Below, in pieces: positions 875-8,732 of a DNA stretch of 64,000 nt. Source of the DNA: Dissulfurispira thermophila (GTDB taxonomy: Bacteria; Nitrospirota; Thermodesulfovibrionia; Thermodesulfovibrionales; Dissulfurispiraceae); the NCBI RefSeq assembly GCF_014701235.1, contig NZ_AP022873.1, positions 1,302,001-1,366,000 on the forward strand, in the 5' to 3' direction. Under the pieces are notes generated by a model. It was not told the DNA's origin, did no database searches, and saw only the letters and a list, made by a program, of their open reading frames with translations. How positions within the stretch are numbered: the stretch's first letter is position 1; each line of letters begins with the position of its first letter. The position numbers were made by a program, and so were the translations under genes.

Positions 875-1750
875 CTATGAGCTAATATATGTTTCTACAA
901 CTCTATTCCAATGTGATGAAAACTGCCTTGCTGCATTAGTAGCCTTTTCCCTGTCCTCGAAAAGACCGAATACAGTCGAGCCGCTACCGCTCATAATAGC
1001 CATTGATGCCCCTGCATTTAGCAATTTTCTTCTCAAGTCCTTAATAATAGGATATTTCTCCATCACAACTTCTTCAAAATCATTATGTGCACTGGACTTA
1101 AGAAGAGAAACATCTCCTGTCTTAAGGGCTTTATAAATTAACTGGATATTATTAAATTTATCCATAGTTTTTGTCAATTCTGTCTTTGTTTCTTGCGCCT
1201 TGCCCTTTGCCCCTAATCTTTCGTATGCCCATACTGTAGATATAGGTATCGCAGGCTTTACAAGCAGCAATGGATAAGATATATCCATCTCAAGCGGAGT
1301 CAAAATATCTCCCCTGCCTTCAACAATAGCCATTGGACAGTTGAAGAAAAAAGGCACATCAGACCCTATACTGCTTCCTATCTCCTTTAATTCATCTTTA
1401 TCCAAACCAAGTCCCCAGAGCTTATTTAATCCTATTAATGCATACGCTGCATCACTGCTGCCCCCACCAAGTCCCGCACCTGATGGAATATCTTTTTTCA
1501 GGACAATCCTTGCCCCATCTTTTATTTCAGCATAAGACTGCAGACTTTTAGCAGCCTTATAAACAAGATTATGCTCAGGCAGGATATTCATATTGGTAAT
1601 AAGTTCGATGGTATCAGAATGCTCAAAAGTCAGGGTATCATAAAGCCCTATACAATGCATCAATGAAAGGATATTATGATAGCCGTCTTCTCTTTTATCC
1701 AGTACATAGAGGGACCAATTTACCTTGGCTGGGGCCATCAGTTCAAACAT
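875..1750 (-). CDS. ispE: 4-diphosphocytidyl-2-C-methyl-D-erythritol kinase
   Basis: GHMP-family kinase that phosphorylates the 2-OH of CDP-methylerythritol in the MEP isoprenoid pathway in the cytoplasm. The 291-residue protein has the usual length. Its N-terminal FELMAPAKVNWSLYVLDKR carries the substrate-binding Lys/Asn region, IPSGAGLGGGSSDAAYAL is the GHMP ATP-binding loop, and IMSGSGSTVFGLF is the C-terminal glycine motif. The upstream TPR lipoprotein ends 13 bp away on the same strand and tRNA-Gln and prs follow, so a joint transcript is likely. Confidence 0.96.
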   Translation of the reverse strand: MFELMAPAKVNWSLYVLDKREDGYHNILSLMHCIGLYDTLTFEHSDTIELITNMNILPEHNLVYKAAKSLQSYAEIKDGARIVLKKDIPSGAGLGGGSSDAAYALIGLNKLWGLGLDKDELKEIGSSIGSDVPFFFNCPMAIVEGRGDILTPLEMDISYPLLLVKPAIPISTVWAYERLGAKGKAQETKTELTKTMDKFNNIQLIYKALKTGDVSLLKSSAHNDFEEVVMEKYPIIKDLRRKLLNAGASMAIMSGSGSTVFGLFEDREKATNAARQFSSHWNRVVETYISS

Positions 1751-1763
1751 ATAAATTAAATCT

Positions 1764-3500
1764 TCACTGCATTTTCTTGATTTTCTGTTTTACTGATTCT
1801 ATCTTTTTCTCAACCCTTTCTTTTAGACCTTCTTCCTTTTCGTGAAATTTCAGTGCCTCTGTCCATGCATCAATAGCTGCCTCATGATTGTCCATTGATT
1901 CATAAACATCACCGATATGTTCATGTAAAACAGGGTCATCCTTAACAATACCAACCGCCTTTTGGAGTGTCTTTAATGCCTCTTCCAGTCTGCCGAGTTT
2001 GAAATAAACCCAACCAAGACTGTCAATTATATATCCGCTGTCAGGTTTTAGTTCAAGTGCTCTACTTACAAGAGATAATGCCTCCTGAAGATTTATTCCT
2101 TTATCAGCATAACTGTATCCAAGATAGTTAAGGGCATCTGCATGATTTGGATTAAGCTCAATTGTGCGCTTTAAGTGCATCACCATATCATCAAATCGTC
2201 CCATTTTTTCATACGCAACTGCAAGATTAAAATGTAGTTCTTCATTATCACCAAACCGATTTAATCCTTCCTTCAACACAACCTCTGCCTTCGCATACTC
2301 TTTTGCCTGAATATGTGCATTGCCGAGATATACATAAATCTCGGGTTTTTGTTTCTCAAAACTTAATATCTCTTCATATACCTTTATGACATCAGCATAA
2401 CGATTCTGTCTCGAATAAATAAGTGCGAGGTTCAGAAATGCATTTATATTTTTGGGATCTAACGATATTATCTTCTTCAACTCCGCTACAGCCTCATCAT
2501 ACCTTTTCAACTCTGCAAGCACAATAGATAGGTAATATAATGAAACAATATCATTAGGTCGTGCTTCGAGAACTATCCTGAACTCTGATATAGCCTTATC
2601 ATAGTGTTTTTCCTGAAGATAAAGGAGTCCAAGCCTCTGGTGGACATCTATATTTTTAGGCGATTCTTTTAAAATTCCTTCAAGCTCTTTAATAGCCTTT
2701 GCAAATGATTTTTCTGTAAGGTACAGTTGTGCAAGCCTCTCTTTTGCAAATAGATTATGAGGATTAATAGTCAGAACCTGCTTATAATAATCCTCAGCAG
2801 CCTTCAAATCGCCTTTTATCTCTTTAACAATGCCTAAATTCAAATAAGCAGCATCAAAAGAGGGATTTATCTCTGTAATTTTTTTAAAAAACTCCTCTGC
2901 CTTATCATAATTCTTATTCTCCATGTTAATAGAACCCATATAATACATCGCCATAATATTATCGGGATCCTTTTTTAATAGAGAACTGAAAATAGCTACC
3001 GCCTTTTGAAATTCCCCTTTTGTAGCATAAAGGACTCCAAGGAAAAGTGATGCCTCATTTTTTTCAGGATTAATTTTAAGAATATTTTCGTAAACCCTTA
3101 TGGCATCGTCAACCCTTTTCTGTGAATTATAAAGCTCTCCAAGCAGCAAAAGGCCAGGCACATAATCTGGATGCTGAATAGCAACCTCTTCAAGTCTTGC
3201 AAGTGCTTCCTGAATTTTACCAAGTTTTACAAGCATAAAGCTGATCTGGGTTTTTAGATATGCAGATGAAGGATCAAACTTCAGTGCATTTATATAGTGG
3301 TCAAGGGCATCCTCCCATTTGCCTGTAATCTCTGCCTCGTACCCAAGTAAATATTCAAAATAAGCCTTTTCAGAATGTGAAACCACATCGTTTTCTGCAT
3401 TTAATACAGTCATCTGTTTATTCAGATTCTTGGAGAATCCCGAACAGGAAGCAGTAAATATAAACATAGATAAGAAAATAATAAGTGTCCTCATTTTCAT
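1764..3500 (-). CDS. TPR-repeat lipoprotein
   Basis: Probably exported and lipid-anchored: the N-terminus MKMRTLIIFLSMFIFTASC is a lipoprotein signal with the acceptor Cys at residue 19. The rest of the 578 residues is about a dozen or more tetratricopeptide repeats, recognisable from recurring units such as NAFLNLALIYSRQNRYADVI and ALNYLGYSYADKGINLQEAL, ending in a Lys-rich tail. TPR proteins act as scaffolds; the partner cannot be read from sequence. Similar proteins often precede ispE in related anaerobes (recollection, not searched). Encoded directly upstream of ispE. Confidence 0.88.
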   Translation of the reverse strand: MKMRTLIIFLSMFIFTASCSGFSKNLNKQMTVLNAENDVVSHSEKAYFEYLLGYEAEITGKWEDALDHYINALKFDPSSAYLKTQISFMLVKLGKIQEALARLEEVAIQHPDYVPGLLLLGELYNSQKRVDDAIRVYENILKINPEKNEASLFLGVLYATKGEFQKAVAIFSSLLKKDPDNIMAMYYMGSINMENKNYDKAEEFFKKITEINPSFDAAYLNLGIVKEIKGDLKAAEDYYKQVLTINPHNLFAKERLAQLYLTEKSFAKAIKELEGILKESPKNIDVHQRLGLLYLQEKHYDKAISEFRIVLEARPNDIVSLYYLSIVLAELKRYDEAVAELKKIISLDPKNINAFLNLALIYSRQNRYADVIKVYEEILSFEKQKPEIYVYLGNAHIQAKEYAKAEVVLKEGLNRFGDNEELHFNLAVAYEKMGRFDDMVMHLKRTIELNPNHADALNYLGYSYADKGINLQEALSLVSRALELKPDSGYIIDSLGWVYFKLGRLEEALKTLQKAVGIVKDDPVLHEHIGDVYESMDNHEAAIDAWTEALKFHEKEEGLKERVEKKIESVKQKIKKMQ

Positions 3501-3597: not shown

Positions 3598-3637
3598 AAA
3601 AAAGGAGTAATAGAGTTTTTTATTGCTCTATTACTCC
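3598..3637 (-). terminator. Rho-independent terminator after the Cys-rich peptide
   Basis: A perfect 12-bp inverted repeat, GGAGTAATAGAG at 3604-3615 with its complement at 3626-3637 around a 10-nt loop, is followed on the minus strand by TTTTTT. It lies 21 bp beyond the peptide stop codon and so closes the radical SAM-peptide transcription unit. Confidence 0.75.
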
Positions 3638-3658
3638 AGCACTTCATTACTCCTCTGA

Positions 3659-3721
3659 TTAGCAGGAACCCTTACACTTGCAAGTGGTCGCACCTTTTTT
3701 TGATACCTTTCTTATGACCAT
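3659..3721 (-). CDS. 20-residue Cys-rich peptide, putative RiPP precursor
   Basis: Small ORF translated by hand: MVIRKVSKKGATTCKCKGSC. The first 11 residues are basic, as in a short leader; the C-terminal TTCKCKGSC has three Cys (14, 16, 20) and Thr/Ser/Lys residues and would be the core. A strong RBS (GGGAGG, 8 nt before the ATG at 3721) supports translation; an in-frame GTG three codons earlier would place the RBS too close. The gene lies 52 bp downstream of a radical SAM/SPASM enzyme on the same strand and just before a terminator, the typical setting of a ribosomally made, radical-modified peptide. No protease or exporter gene is adjacent. Function is inferred from context and composition only. 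Confidence 0.7.
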   Translation of the reverse strand: MVIRKVSKKGATTCKCKGSC

Positions 3722-3773
3722 GTCAAGCACCTCCCTTTCTTAGGGATTAATCAAGACTTCATGCCTTGATATT

Positions 3774-4913
3774 TTATGATTTAATTATATCATATGCATA
3801 ACATTTGTAAAGGTCCCTCTTTCTATTGTCACCGGCGCGGAATCTGCAGCCACCTCTGCACTCATTGATGAACCCGCATAATGAATCAGAACATTCCATA
3901 TTTTCTAATCTCAAGGGTTTTATTTTTTTCCATGACCTTCTCAGCCCTTCATTGATATTTCCAACAGGTGTGTGTGAATAAAATGCGCACTTGCATATAT
4001 TCCCATTTGCAAGCACAGACATCAGATGGAGACCACATGCAAAACCTTCCCCACCACCATGTAATCCACTGCTAAAGCCATAATTAAGATACCTGCCAGC
4101 TATTTTCGGCGGGACAGAAAATATAGGGTTCAGTTCTAAATTACCAGAAACACATGGCACATCAACTGTCCAGTCTTTAATGCCAATCTTTCTGAATAAT
4201 TTATCCATCTCGTCAAATTCATCAAGGTTTCTGGCATGAATCATGGTAGCTATAGAGACTGTAATTCCTGCATTAATTGCTTCATAAATTTTTTGCATTA
4301 CTACCTTATATGTTCCCTTTCCTCTTATTGATTCATGCCCATTTTCCATACCATCAACACTAAACTGTATTTCATCAACATTAAGCCCCTTCAAAATCTT
4401 TGGATTTAACAAAAGACCATTTGTAAAAAGTATTTTTCTGAAATTATATTCAGGTAGTAAAAAATTTATTTCATCAAAATGGCTGTGAATCAAAGGCTCT
4501 CCACCGGTTATTAAAAGACGCAGCCCCTGCATCTCTTCGAATTCATCAAGCACTGTTTTTATCTCATAAATGGAGAGTTCATTACTTATAGGCTTGCCAA
4601 TATAACAATGTCTGCATCTGAGATTGCATTTATCAGTAATCTGAAGTTCAAGATACCTTAATGAAGGAACAGGAGACTTTGCAATCACAGGTCTTTTAGT
4701 GTTGACTACCTCTTTGGTTAATATCCCTTCTGAAAGGCAATAATCAATAAATTCTGTATCTACATCACCAATACACCCTTCAGGATGTGAACATTTTTTC
4801 AAAAACTCAAAGGCGTCACCATCCAACTCATAGAGTTCATCATTCTTTATATCATAAACTGATGGAGTCTCAAGCCATTTCAAGACAAACCACTTAGAAA
4901 GATAATATCTCAT
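3774..4913 (-). CDS. Radical SAM/SPASM peptide-maturase-like protein
   Basis: Radical SAM enzyme with the cluster motif CNLRCRHC (Cys 96, 100, 103) followed by GGEP (137-140), which binds SAM methionine. Residues 1-85 are a small N-terminal domain resembling the PqqD-like recognition fold of peptide maturases. From residue 254 on there are nine more Cys (254, 293, 307, 309, 341, 346, 352, 356, 371), including CGLH and CRGGCRF, which fit a SPASM domain holding auxiliary Fe-S clusters. SPASM proteins of this size (379 aa) usually install thioether, C-C or epimer modifications in short peptides; the 20-residue Cys-rich peptide just downstream is the obvious substrate. The gene is divergent from nagZ with 36 bp between starts. 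Exact subfamily not determined. Confidence 0.88.
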   Translation of the reverse strand: MRYYLSKWFVLKWLETPSVYDIKNDELYELDGDAFEFLKKCSHPEGCIGDVDTEFIDYCLSEGILTKEVVNTKRPVIAKSPVPSLRYLELQITDKCNLRCRHCYIGKPISNELSIYEIKTVLDEFEEMQGLRLLITGGEPLIHSHFDEINFLLPEYNFRKILFTNGLLLNPKILKGLNVDEIQFSVDGMENGHESIRGKGTYKVVMQKIYEAINAGITVSIATMIHARNLDEFDEMDKLFRKIGIKDWTVDVPCVSGNLELNPIFSVPPKIAGRYLNYGFSSGLHGGGEGFACGLHLMSVLANGNICKCAFYSHTPVGNINEGLRRSWKKIKPLRLENMECSDSLCGFINECRGGCRFRAGDNRKRDLYKCYAYDIIKS

Positions 4914-4949: not shown

Positions 4950-6458
4950 ATGCCTGCCAATCTGATAAACTCACATATGCTCAATACCATAAATTCTCTT
5001 GAAAAAAAACTCTATCAAATCATCATTAACAGACTCGATGGCGATAACATTCAATCAGAAAAATATCGAAATAAAATATTTAAGCTTGTTAAAAAAGGCA
5101 TTGGCGGCTTTATAATCTTTGGTGGAGAAAAAGAAGAAATAAGGAATTTTATCGCTGAATTGCAGACAGCATCAGAAATACCACTTTTTATTGCATCAGA
5201 TATAGAGCGTGGAGTCGGACAACAGATAAAAGGCGCAACTAATTTTCCATGCCAGATGGCGGTAGCTGCAGCTATAGATAAAAATAGACCTGAAGATATA
5301 TTGCTCCTCAACATGATAATACAATCCATAATAGATGAAGCTATAGATATTGGAATAAATCTGCCACTGATTCCTGTGATGGATGTAAACCAAAATCAGG
5401 ACAATCCCATAATATGCACAAGGGCTTTTTCTGATAATCCAGAAATAGTAACATGGTTTGGCTTGCATTACATAAAATTTATCGAGGACTCATGCCTAAT
5501 AAGCTGTCCAAAACACTTTCCAGGTCATGGAGACACCAAAGAAGACTCACATATCTCCCTTCCTGTTATAACAAAATCTAAAGATGATCTAATGAAAACA
5601 GACCTCATGCCTTTCATTAAATCAATCGAAATAGGTGTTAGCAGCATAATGATAGGACATCTTAAAGTAACGGCATTGGATTCAATGCCTGCAAGCTTGT
5701 CAAAGAAGATAATAACTGATGTATTAAAAAAAGAATTTGGCTTCAACGGTCTTGTAATCACAGATGCTCTGAATATGGGTGCCCTCAAAGACTACGGTAA
5801 TGTCCCGGTCGAATGCATAAATGCCGGCGTTGATATATTGCTCCATCCCGCTGATGCTAATATAACAGTTAAGGAATTATTATCAGCCATTAAGTCCAGA
5901 GAGATTAATGAAGGTCAGATTGACAGCGCATTAGAGCGCATAATCAGAGCAAAAAAAAGGTTTAACAATATCAAAAAAACAGATGTAAATTACAAAGCCC
6001 ATGCATTCATATCAGAACAAGTCTTTGATATGTCAATAACTCTGATGAAAAGTAAGCCAGATATATTACCGCTATCATCAAGCGATAAAGATACATATAT
6101 TACATTTGCAGGTGAGAACGAGATATATAAATCTTCATTATTGAAAAATCATTTCAATTCAGAATTAAATATTGCAAATCCTGAATTGCTGATCATTGCT
6201 ATATTCACAGATGTTTCAGCATGGAAAGGAAGTTCAGGAATAAGTGATAGAGAAAAGCAAAGGATAATAAGGCTTGTTAAACAAGCAAAGAAATCAATAG
6301 TCATCTCATTTGGAAGCCCATATGTCTTAAGGCACTTTAAAGATGCCAGTGTGCTCATTGCAGCCTATGAGCCTTCAGAACAGGCGCAAATGGCTGTAAT
6401 AAAATGCCTGAAAGGAGAGATAGACTCCAGTGGTAAACTGCCCATAATAATCTCATAA
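4950..6458 (+). CDS. nagZ: Beta-N-acetylhexosaminidase NagZ (GH3)
   Basis: Family 3 glycosidase that removes GlcNAc from GlcNAc-(anhydro)MurNAc during peptidoglycan recycling. KHFPGHGDTKEDSHISLP is the NagZ signature containing the Asp/His general acid dyad, and ITDALNMGAL carries the nucleophilic Asp. At 502 residues it has a C-terminal domain of about 150 residues beyond the catalytic barrel, as in Gram-positive NagZ, whereas E. coli NagZ has only the barrel (about 340). No signal peptide is evident, so it is probably cytoplasmic. The RBS for the ATG at 4950 is weak; a Met at codon 10 (4977) is an alternative. First gene of the rightward recycling genes nagZ-ampG-nagA. Confidence 0.93.
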   Translation: MPANLINSHMLNTINSLEKKLYQIIINRLDGDNIQSEKYRNKIFKLVKKGIGGFIIFGGEKEEIRNFIAELQTASEIPLFIASDIERGVGQQIKGATNFPCQMAVAAAIDKNRPEDILLLNMIIQSIIDEAIDIGINLPLIPVMDVNQNQDNPIICTRAFSDNPEIVTWFGLHYIKFIEDSCLISCPKHFPGHGDTKEDSHISLPVITKSKDDLMKTDLMPFIKSIEIGVSSIMIGHLKVTALDSMPASLSKKIITDVLKKEFGFNGLVITDALNMGALKDYGNVPVECINAGVDILLHPADANITVKELLSAIKSREINEGQIDSALERIIRAKKRFNNIKKTDVNYKAHAFISEQVFDMSITLMKSKPDILPLSSSDKDTYITFAGENEIYKSSLLKNHFNSELNIANPELLIIAIFTDVSAWKGSSGISDREKQRIIRLVKQAKKSIVISFGSPYVLRHFKDASVLIAAYEPSEQAQMAVIKCLKGEIDSSGKLPIIIS

Positions 6459-6517
6459 ATTTATTGTGCCTTTTCAAGATGTTCACAACTTGGTATTTTG
6501 TGGTAATATGGACTCCG

Positions 6518-6523
6518 TATAAT
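6518..6523 (+). promoter_or_regulatory. Candidate -10 element upstream of ampG
   Basis: A perfect TATAAT at 6518-6523 sits 37 bp before the ampG TTG start in the 102-bp gap after nagZ. No good -35 lies at 16-18 bp spacing, so the call is tentative; ampG could equally be read through from nagZ. Confidence 0.3.
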
Positions 6524-6560
6524 ACAGCAAAATACACTTATTTCTAACAAAGGATAGCAT

Positions 6561-7802
6561 TTGAACAAATTAGCTCCTTATTTGCAGGTATTCACCAGCA
6601 GGCGGATTGCAACAGTTACGCTCCTCGGGTTCGCATCAGGTCTTCCACTTGCTCTCACAAGCGGGACGCTTCAGGCGTGGATGGCTGTTGATGGCGTAGA
6701 TATAAAGACCATCGGCGTCTTTGCTCTTGTTGGACTTCCTTATACAATTAAATTCCTATGGTCTCCTATCATGGACAGATTTGTACCACCGTTTTTAGGA
6801 AGGCGCCGGGGGTGGATAATTATTGCGCAAATTGCATTAATCTCGGGCATAGCAGCAATGGCATTCAACTCACCAAAACAGGCACCCTTACTTATGGCTG
6901 TTCTTGCATTGACAGTAGCTTTTTCATCAGCATCACAGGATATAGTTATCGATGCATACCGCACTGATATATTGAGAGAAAAGGAGCGCGGCGCAGGAGC
7001 TGCTGTCTTTGTCATGGGCTATCGCATTGCAATGCTCATATCAGGTGCATTATCTCTTATTCTTTCTGATAATATAGGCTGGCATAATACTTATTTGCTT
7101 ATGGCCGGGTTAATGACAATCAGTCTCATTGCAACTTTTTTGGGACCTGAGCCTGAAGAGAAAATTATCCCTCCAAAGAGTCTTCACGAAGCGATCTGGG
7201 GACCATTAAAGGACTATTTTTCAAGACGCTCTGCTGTCATGCTACTGCTCCTGATCATTTTATACAAACTTGGAGATGCATATGCTGGGTCATTAACCAC
7301 TGCTTTCCTCATTAAAGGCGTGGGCTTTACACCAACAGATGTCGGCACTATCAATAAAGGACTTGGTCTCATATCGCTCATTGTAGGAGCAATGTTCGGA
7401 GGCGCATTAATGACAAGACTCGGTCTTTTCAAATCATTGTTATTTTTTGGTGCATTGCAGGCAGTATCTAACCTCTCATTTATGGTTTTGGCATGGATTG
7501 GAAAAAGTTATTGGATGCTGATTTTTGCAGTGGCATTCGAAAATCTTAGTGGAGGTATGGGAACATCAGCCTTTGTAGCACTCCTTATGAGTATGTGTAA
7601 TCAAAAGTATAGTGCAACACAGTATGCACTTCTTTCATCACTTGCTGCACTTGGAAGGATCTTTATTGCCCCCACATCAGGATTTTTAGTTTCAGCTATT
7701 GGCTGGTCATTATTCTTTTTTGTAACAACACTTGTGGCATTGCCGGGACTATGGCTGCTATGGTGCATGCGTCAGAGCATAGAAAATCTAAAACAGTATT
7801 GA
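6561..7802 (+). CDS. ampG: AmpG-like muropeptide permease (MFS)
   Basis: Inner-membrane major facilitator protein that imports GlcNAc-anhydroMurNAc (muro)peptides in exchange for protons. The 413 residues form about 12 hydrophobic segments, and the start is strikingly AmpG-like: LGFASGLPLALTSGTLQAWM, then FLWSPIMDRFVPPFLGRRRGW. The start is TTG at 6561, preceded by AAAGGA at 6549-6554; no ATG fits the conserved N-terminus. Between nagZ and nagA, it completes an import, cleavage and deacetylation series. Confidence 0.92.
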   Translation: MNKLAPYLQVFTSRRIATVTLLGFASGLPLALTSGTLQAWMAVDGVDIKTIGVFALVGLPYTIKFLWSPIMDRFVPPFLGRRRGWIIIAQIALISGIAAMAFNSPKQAPLLMAVLALTVAFSSASQDIVIDAYRTDILREKERGAGAAVFVMGYRIAMLISGALSLILSDNIGWHNTYLLMAGLMTISLIATFLGPEPEEKIIPPKSLHEAIWGPLKDYFSRRSAVMLLLLIILYKLGDAYAGSLTTAFLIKGVGFTPTDVGTINKGLGLISLIVGAMFGGALMTRLGLFKSLLFFGALQAVSNLSFMVLAWIGKSYWMLIFAVAFENLSGGMGTSAFVALLMSMCNQKYSATQYALLSSLAALGRIFIAPTSGFLVSAIGWSLFFFVTTLVALPGLWLLWCMRQSIENLKQY

Positions 7803-7850
7803 CAACAATGTGCATTTAGCACTAAATTTTAAACAGTTTGAATCCAACTC

Positions 7851-8732
7851 ATGATTATGACTAAAACTAAAATCATAGATATCCATATACACGGCATAAA
7901 CGGATATGATACAAGAACAACTGTTGAGGACCATATACTTCAAATAGCCGAGATAATGGGATCTCAAGGGATTTCAGAAATTATTCCAACTATATTTCCT
8001 GCCACAATAAATGTAATGAGAGCAAACCTCGCGGTAATAAAAAAAGCAATGGAGCTCCAGAAGACAGAGGACAGGAGTCAGAAAACAGAAGCAAAAATTA
8101 TTGGAGTACACCTCGAAGGACCATTTTTGAATCCCTTGAAGTGCGGTGCTTTGAATGCAATAACATTTATTGAGCCGTCAGAATATAATTTTAAAGAACT
8201 CATAGAAGGCTTTGAGGACATAATAAAAATAATCACTATTGCACCAGAGATAAATCATACTGCAAAACTGATTAAAAAAATAACTGATATGGGAATTATT
8301 GTAAGCATGGGACATTCAGATGCTACCTATGTCGAGGCAGAAGCAGGTTTTCATGCAGGGGCAAAGGGTATTACACATATATTCAATGCAATGAGGGGAT
8401 TTCATCACAGAGAATTAGGAATTGCAGGCTTTGGACTTTTGAATCAGGATATTTATATAGAGGTCATTGCAGACCCTTACCATTTACATCCGCAAACTCT
8501 CGAACTGATATTTAAAATAAAAAATCCAGAAAGGATTATTCTTATCTCTGACTCAGTAAAAGAGACAACACCATTTACAAAATATCAGGGGGTTACCAAT
8601 GCTCATGGCAAACTGTTAGGAGGCTGCATGACAATAGCAGAATCATCAAAAAGGCTTATTGAAATTGGATTTGATAAAGATATTATAATGAAGTGCATAA
8701 CAGAAAATCCTGAAAGATATTTAATACAATAA
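7851..8732 (+). CDS. nagA: N-acetylglucosamine-6-phosphate deacetylase, short form
   Basis: Amidohydrolase that would convert GlcNAc-6-P to GlcN-6-P for re-entry into wall synthesis. Seen: the metal-site motifs DIHIHGINGYDT, HLEGPFLNP, SMGHSDATY, HIFNAMRGFHHRE and LISDSV. The protein is only 293 residues against about 380 for E. coli NagA. It starts directly at the first barrel strand and ends soon after the barrel, so the beta-sandwich formed by both termini in the family is missing. A low-complexity insert, QKTEDRSQKTEA, encoded by the cagaagacag repeat at about 8059-8093, lies before HLEGP. A GlcNAc kinase is not seen nearby. Confidence 0.85.
   Translation: MIMTKTKIIDIHIHGINGYDTRTTVEDHILQIAEIMGSQGISEIIPTIFPATINVMRANLAVIKKAMELQKTEDRSQKTEAKIIGVHLEGPFLNPLKCGALNAITFIEPSEYNFKELIEGFEDIIKIITIAPEINHTAKLIKKITDMGIIVSMGHSDATYVEAEAGFHAGAKGITHIFNAMRGFHHRELGIAGFGLLNQDIYIEVIADPYHLHPQTLELIFKIKNPERIILISDSVKETTPFTKYQGVTNAHGKLLGGCMTIAESSKRLIEIGFDKDIIMKCITENPERYLIQ

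Follow-up and report, generated by a model that had tools for sequence, protein, structure and literature searches.

A cysteine-rich peptide of 20 residues and an RRE-radical SAM-SPASM enzyme are co-inherited in Nitrospirota, even where their genes are unlinked. The explanation that best fits the whole is a minimal two-gene RiPP-type system, in which the enzyme matures the peptide into a cellular product, and we consider it likely. The window, by which we mean the whole stretch of 64,000 nucleotides that was analysed, comes from a complete genome consisting of a single 2.37-Mb contig. The original prediction had described there a minimal RiPP-like unit, made of a radical SAM/SPASM enzyme and a tiny Cys-rich precursor, and had proposed a comparison with geopeptides. 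The observation of enzyme, peptide and terminator is real, and conservation of the pair throughout the phylum is the decisive evidence for the RiPP-like unit; the geopeptide part does not stand, and the pair is phylum-wide rather than a local oddity. The RRE, the promoter inside the enzyme gene and peptide-enzyme pairs lying far apart had not been mentioned in that prediction. The locus has the following elements:

3659 to 3721, minus strand: 20-residue candidate precursor peptide MVIRKVSKKGATTCKCKGSC (ATG at 3721; leader of about residues 1-12, core TCKCKGSC)
3728 to 3736, minus strand: ribosome-binding site of the peptide gene, AGGGAGGTG
3774 to 4913, minus strand: RRE-radical SAM-SPASM enzyme, a putative peptide maturase (379-residue open reading frame; Pfam Radical_SAM 77.9 bits; AF2 model)

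Both genes were found as predicted. The tiny gene with a strong ribosome-binding site encodes a sequence identical to the one first written down, and the enzyme has C96, C100 and C103 followed by nine cysteines from C254 onward. The gap between the stop codon of the enzyme and the ATG of the peptide is 52 nucleotides (3774 versus 3721, both on the minus strand). The two strands of the window contain 2172 reading frames of 12-40 codons, and this peptide alone ends in CxCxxxC.

The enzyme was then divided into three regions:

4662 to 4913, minus strand: RiPP recognition element-like domain, residues 1-84 (folded alone; Foldseek)
4605 to 4628, minus strand: CNLRCRHC radical SAM [4Fe-4S] motif with C96, C100 and C103, invariant in 55 homologues
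3801 to 4037, minus strand: SPASM domain with C293, C309, C341, C346, C352, C356 and C371, all seven invariant in the 55 homologues

It possesses both the radical SAM CxxxCxxC and the seven-cysteine SPASM pattern (C-x10-G-x4-C ... C-x4-C-x5-C-x3-C ... C), with x4 rather than x2 spacing in the first Cys pair of the second SPASM block. Pfam SPASM was matched at E<0.1 by just 5 of the 55 members. An AF2 model of the enzyme (mean pLDDT 92.4) retrieved SkfB, CteB and SuiB as the top solved structures in Foldseek, and a sequence comparison likewise ranked SkfB first among solved relatives (E 1e-14). When residues 1-84 were modelled in isolation (pLDDT 86.9), the leading matches were the TbiB1 lasso RRE with its leader peptide (prob 0.99), SuiB, a LynD-type heterocyclase, lasso B1 and CteB. 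Each of these matches is modest (E 0.03 and above), yet nearly all of the leading ones are RREs; the domain had no sequence-level match in the PDB. The known role of an RRE is leader binding, and the fold match of the isolated domain points to such an element here. Judged from these models, the enzyme has the architecture of a peptide maturase.

Next, we examined conservation of the peptide. In a scan of the window genome and its relatives that required CxC only, and so imposed nothing else of the core motif, the same 20-residue peptide adjoined 33 of 45 enzyme loci, just downstream. Outside the order it again adjoins the enzyme at most loci, and nearly all members are 20 residues long with three cysteines. 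Across 74 distinct coding sequences, C14, K15, C16, K17, S19 and C20 are constant at the protein level and encoded by varying codons (TGC/TGT, AAA/AAG and others), an invariance that is partly ascertained for C14, K15, C16, K17 and C20 because the wide scans fixed those residues in their core pattern and left T13, I3, K5 and K8 free. The pN/pS ratio is 0.064 for the core (residues 13-20) versus 0.39 for the leader (residues 2-12), in which I3 never varies and 71 of the 74 sequences have K at position 5. The CKCK-x-S-C core is almost invariant, and the variants CKCKNSC and CKCKESC were found in several enzyme-positive genomes that had no exact match. Two other pattern matches, CKCKSCC (G029) and CKCKCCC (f2), were rejected as spurious, with a missing start codon or a different sequence. 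Some genomes have two copies of the peptide gene: G154 (G154:C26:6031 and 7576), G112, G156 and G196.

A conserved small Cys-rich frame near homologues of the enzyme, which the original prediction had named as its check, is present in frame, and changes in its core are almost all synonymous. The probability that it is a chance frame or a regulatory leader peptide, as a short ORF close to a terminator could be, is negligible: the core is held through synonymous change, the start codon and Shine-Dalgarno sequence are conserved across the peptide genes, and the peptide recurs at unlinked places with unrelated genes downstream. For a chance ORF, core conservation and recurrence already amount to a refutation.

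The pair recurs through the order Thermodesulfovibrionales and in other classes of Nitrospirota, with enzyme homologues 44-82% identical across the phylum. Among 177 genomes of the order, 112 had both partners, 8 the enzyme only, 11 the peptide only and 46 neither, these counts and their significance values ignoring the relatedness of the genomes. With looser patterns and a spurious match removed, the numbers became about 114, 6, 10 and 47, respectively, and several of the leftover single-partner genomes are incomplete or truncated at contig ends. A reversed control pattern gave 0 matches in the same genome scan. In the part of the phylum sample outside the order, we found the enzyme in 25 genomes; every one of the 18 exact peptide matches belonged to this set. 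Exact and looser patterns detected no CKCK-type peptide in four genomes with the enzyme (G063, G065 and G066 of genus g40, and G174); in the g40 genomes the substrate has possibly diverged, and would then inform on the core. Three genomes at least 97% complete (G043, G109 and G154) have the peptide with the enzyme undetected, which may reflect loss of the enzyme, its replacement by another or a gap in the assembly. Three enzyme copies contain an in-frame stop or frame break (G241:C85, G112:C18 and G074:C173) and are possibly pseudogenes or assembly errors.

Linkage was found to be labile. Among the 112 genomes with both partners, 71 have them linked and 41 have them unlinked or on different contigs, and the state changed at least 8 times on the enzyme tree. 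The same tree requires 19 changes of family label versus a minimum of 17, and descent of the enzyme is mostly vertical. One family from another class (f25) is nested within the order, which on this quick tree is likely a single transfer. An exact-word scan reaching beyond the phylum returned only Nitrospirota records and one MAG matching a same-genus genome. A mobile origin was rejected, no full-length enzyme relative being found on plasmids.

We further analysed the signals that flank the peptide gene:

3784 to 3811, minus strand: predicted extended -10 sigma-70 promoter TTTACA-N16-TATAAT within the final codons of the enzyme gene (11 of 12 matches)
3732 to 3746, minus strand: predicted hairpin UCCCU-AAGAA-AGGGA, its 3' arm overlapping the Shine-Dalgarno sequence (weak alone, z -0.2)
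3598 to 3637, minus strand: intrinsic terminator with a perfect 12-bp stem, 10-nt loop and T tract (MFE -18.2 kcal/mol, z -3.6)

A promoter scoring at least 10.5 precedes 57% of peptide genes; among shuffled sequences, 0.06% reach that score. Of 53 linked homologues, 34 have the promoter at the 3' end of the enzyme gene, and 32 have a motif near the C-terminus, built around Y-[DG]-I-[IM], that spans the codons of the -10 element; among unlinked homologues the figure is 0 of 16 for each. This distribution suggests that the tail of the enzyme was probably shaped by the promoter of its neighbour, and lost once the neighbour left. Of 80 loci, 48 have a GG-pairing hairpin at the equivalent position; shuffling the upstream part gave a mean of 14.7 and a maximum of 23. 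The perfect 12-bp terminator of the original prediction is formed by 3637-3626 and 3615-3604, followed by TTTTTT; its 10-nt loop exceeds the 8-nt limit of a consensus scanner, which therefore overlooked it. Terminator-like hairpins within 90 nt past the peptide stop were found at 54 of 80 loci versus 0 of 80 shuffled. With its predicted promoter, hairpin and terminator, the peptide gene reads as a self-contained transcription unit.

The commonest gene order is enzyme, peptide, TPR lipoprotein and ispE, and elsewhere the neighbours, judged by eye from sequence, are unrelated: trehalose-6-P synthase, UvrC, GpsA, HD-GYP, cytochrome c and SOD. In the window the TPR lipoprotein and ispE come after the peptide at 875-3500 on the minus strand, and where the enzyme or the peptide has moved off, the remaining partner often still adjoins this pair. 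Divergent from the system, at 4950-8732 on the plus strand, lie a GH3 glycosidase (NagZ-like), an AmpG-like-looking MFS transporter and an amidohydrolase (possibly NagA-like), likely a peptidoglycan-recycling cluster. Since neighbours outside the common order are so varied and unrelated, a functional partner gene at the loci was rejected. A link to sulfur metabolism (dsrA) or CO dehydrogenase (CODH) was rejected also: neither tracks the system. Almost every genome of the order has them, yet some genomes with the system lack them, so that both are uninformative.

Among the neighbours of the system loci, including those of unlinked peptide genes, we found no recurring protease, exporter or immunity gene, in agreement with the earlier remark that an exporter and a protease are absent. 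This bears on what the product might be. Antimicrobial RiPPs tend toward diversification. The peptide is short, cationic and Cys-rich, and SkfB, the closest solved structure, is a sactisynthase; a secreted antimicrobial or signalling sactipeptide is nonetheless very improbable, given a core nearly invariant between classes and inherited vertically at loci that lack export, protease and immunity genes. A role in warfare is probably not that of the product.

A small cofactor carved from the peptide, as in PQQ or mycofactocin synthesis, with general proteases breaking down the leader, would agree with a nearly invariant core retained vertically throughout the phylum and unlinked to any transporter or immunity gene, and the size range of PqqA includes 20-residue precursors. 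We consider it rather unlikely: the companion genes (MftB/PqqD, further enzymes and dehydrogenases) are not co-located at the loci, where neighbours are varied housekeeping genes; no dependent enzyme was found, and dsrA and CODH do not track the system; and the core retains three cysteines rather than residues for carving out. The peptide could also be a small metal- or Fe-S-binding protein, with the enzyme acting elsewhere or using it as an activator or cofactor-delivery partner. The CxCxxxC ending and two lysines could bind metal, no protease is present, and the peptide has its own predicted promoter and is often unlinked. Against this, the enzyme has an RRE-like domain, its closest folds are peptide maturases, and the conserved basic leader would be left without need, which together make this reading improbable.

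For the favoured two-gene maturation system, we propose the following course. A strong promoter of its own would drive expression of the peptide, the RRE of the enzyme would capture the basic N-terminal part (M-x-I-K/R-K-V-x-K), and the C-terminal core T-C-K-C-K-x-S-C would enter the radical SAM active site. On the model of CteB, at least one Cys sulfur (C14, C16 or C20) would bind the open auxiliary SPASM cluster. The bound Cys would then form a thioether with a neighbouring residue, the kind of linkage known from sactipeptides and ranthipeptides; alternatively, a different core residue would be altered. That the peptide is the substrate of the enzyme is very probable, thioether chemistry has about an even chance, and a housekeeping role is somewhat favoured. 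The product would be a conserved cellular peptide, either a cofactor or one with redox or metal activity, comparable to the SCIFF peptides that are near-universal in clostridia; its near-invariance and vertical retention speak for such a role, as has been argued for those peptides. Only tentatively do we put forward a narrower reading: that Nitrospirota widely retain, by vertical inheritance, a peptide cofactor or a redox or metal peptide that one enzyme makes from the 20-residue precursor, with substrate and enzyme as separate genetic units and the substrate promoter within the C-terminal codons of the enzyme.

These results add an apparently undescribed precursor/maturase family that gene finders will probably overlook; the open PMC library has almost no RiPP literature on this phylum. 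The 41 unlinked cases imply that RiPP mining restricted to adjacent genes misses partners. A core that hardly varies and is passed on vertically suggests a basic role in the cell, as has been suspected for SCIFF peptides, and if some hosts are culturable, the intracellular role of conserved radical SAM peptides becomes testable.

Finally, we compared the system with known ones. NCBIfam and Pfam place the enzyme only in the generic radical SAM superfamily, no NCBIfam equivalog scores it above cut-off (best 83 bits versus 650, WgkB), and the peptides match no NCBIfam or Pfam family. Geopeptides are likewise an in-silico class of radical SAM enzyme and short peptide; membership was rejected, as TIGR04280 scores the enzyme at 21.8 bits versus a cut-off of 400. 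GeoRSP, mycofactocin and PqqE maturases share the radical SAM core and act as SPASM maturases of short peptides, but their equivalog cut-offs are far from reached and their partner genes are absent nearby. Streptide SuiA-SuiB resembles the system in its RRE-radical SAM-SPASM fold (TM 0.71) and short precursor; SuiB, however, forms a Lys-Trp C-C bond, and the precursor here has no Trp. The skf genes form a larger operon that includes transport and immunity. The SkfA precursor is unrelated, and TIGR04403 gives the window enzyme 55 bits versus a cut-off of 300; SkfB is the closest solved enzyme by sequence and fold and carries an N-terminal RRE (PMC8326336). In CteB, a substrate Cys has been proposed to bind the open auxiliary cluster and the leader forms a strand on the RRE, and the clade-wide presence of SCIFF peptides in clostridia has been used to argue against an antimicrobial role (PMC8326336). 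The SCIFF (ranthipeptide) system CteA-CteB, too, pairs a Cys-rich precursor with an RRE-radical SAM-SPASM enzyme and is found throughout much of a clade. It differs in its precursor of about 45 residues with 6 Cys, versus 20 residues with 3 Cys here, which places our peptide outside SCIFF, in its clostridial rather than Nitrospirota hosts, and in an enzyme that, although among the top fold matches, is just 19% identical in the fold alignment. The core sequence is printed in no paper of the open PMC library and no description of the system was found there, so that, within the open-access literature, this precursor/maturase family is apparently undescribed. An encoded precursor conserved with its enzyme, together with the modelled fold, suggests that it belongs to the known kind of RRE-radical SAM-SPASM RiPP.
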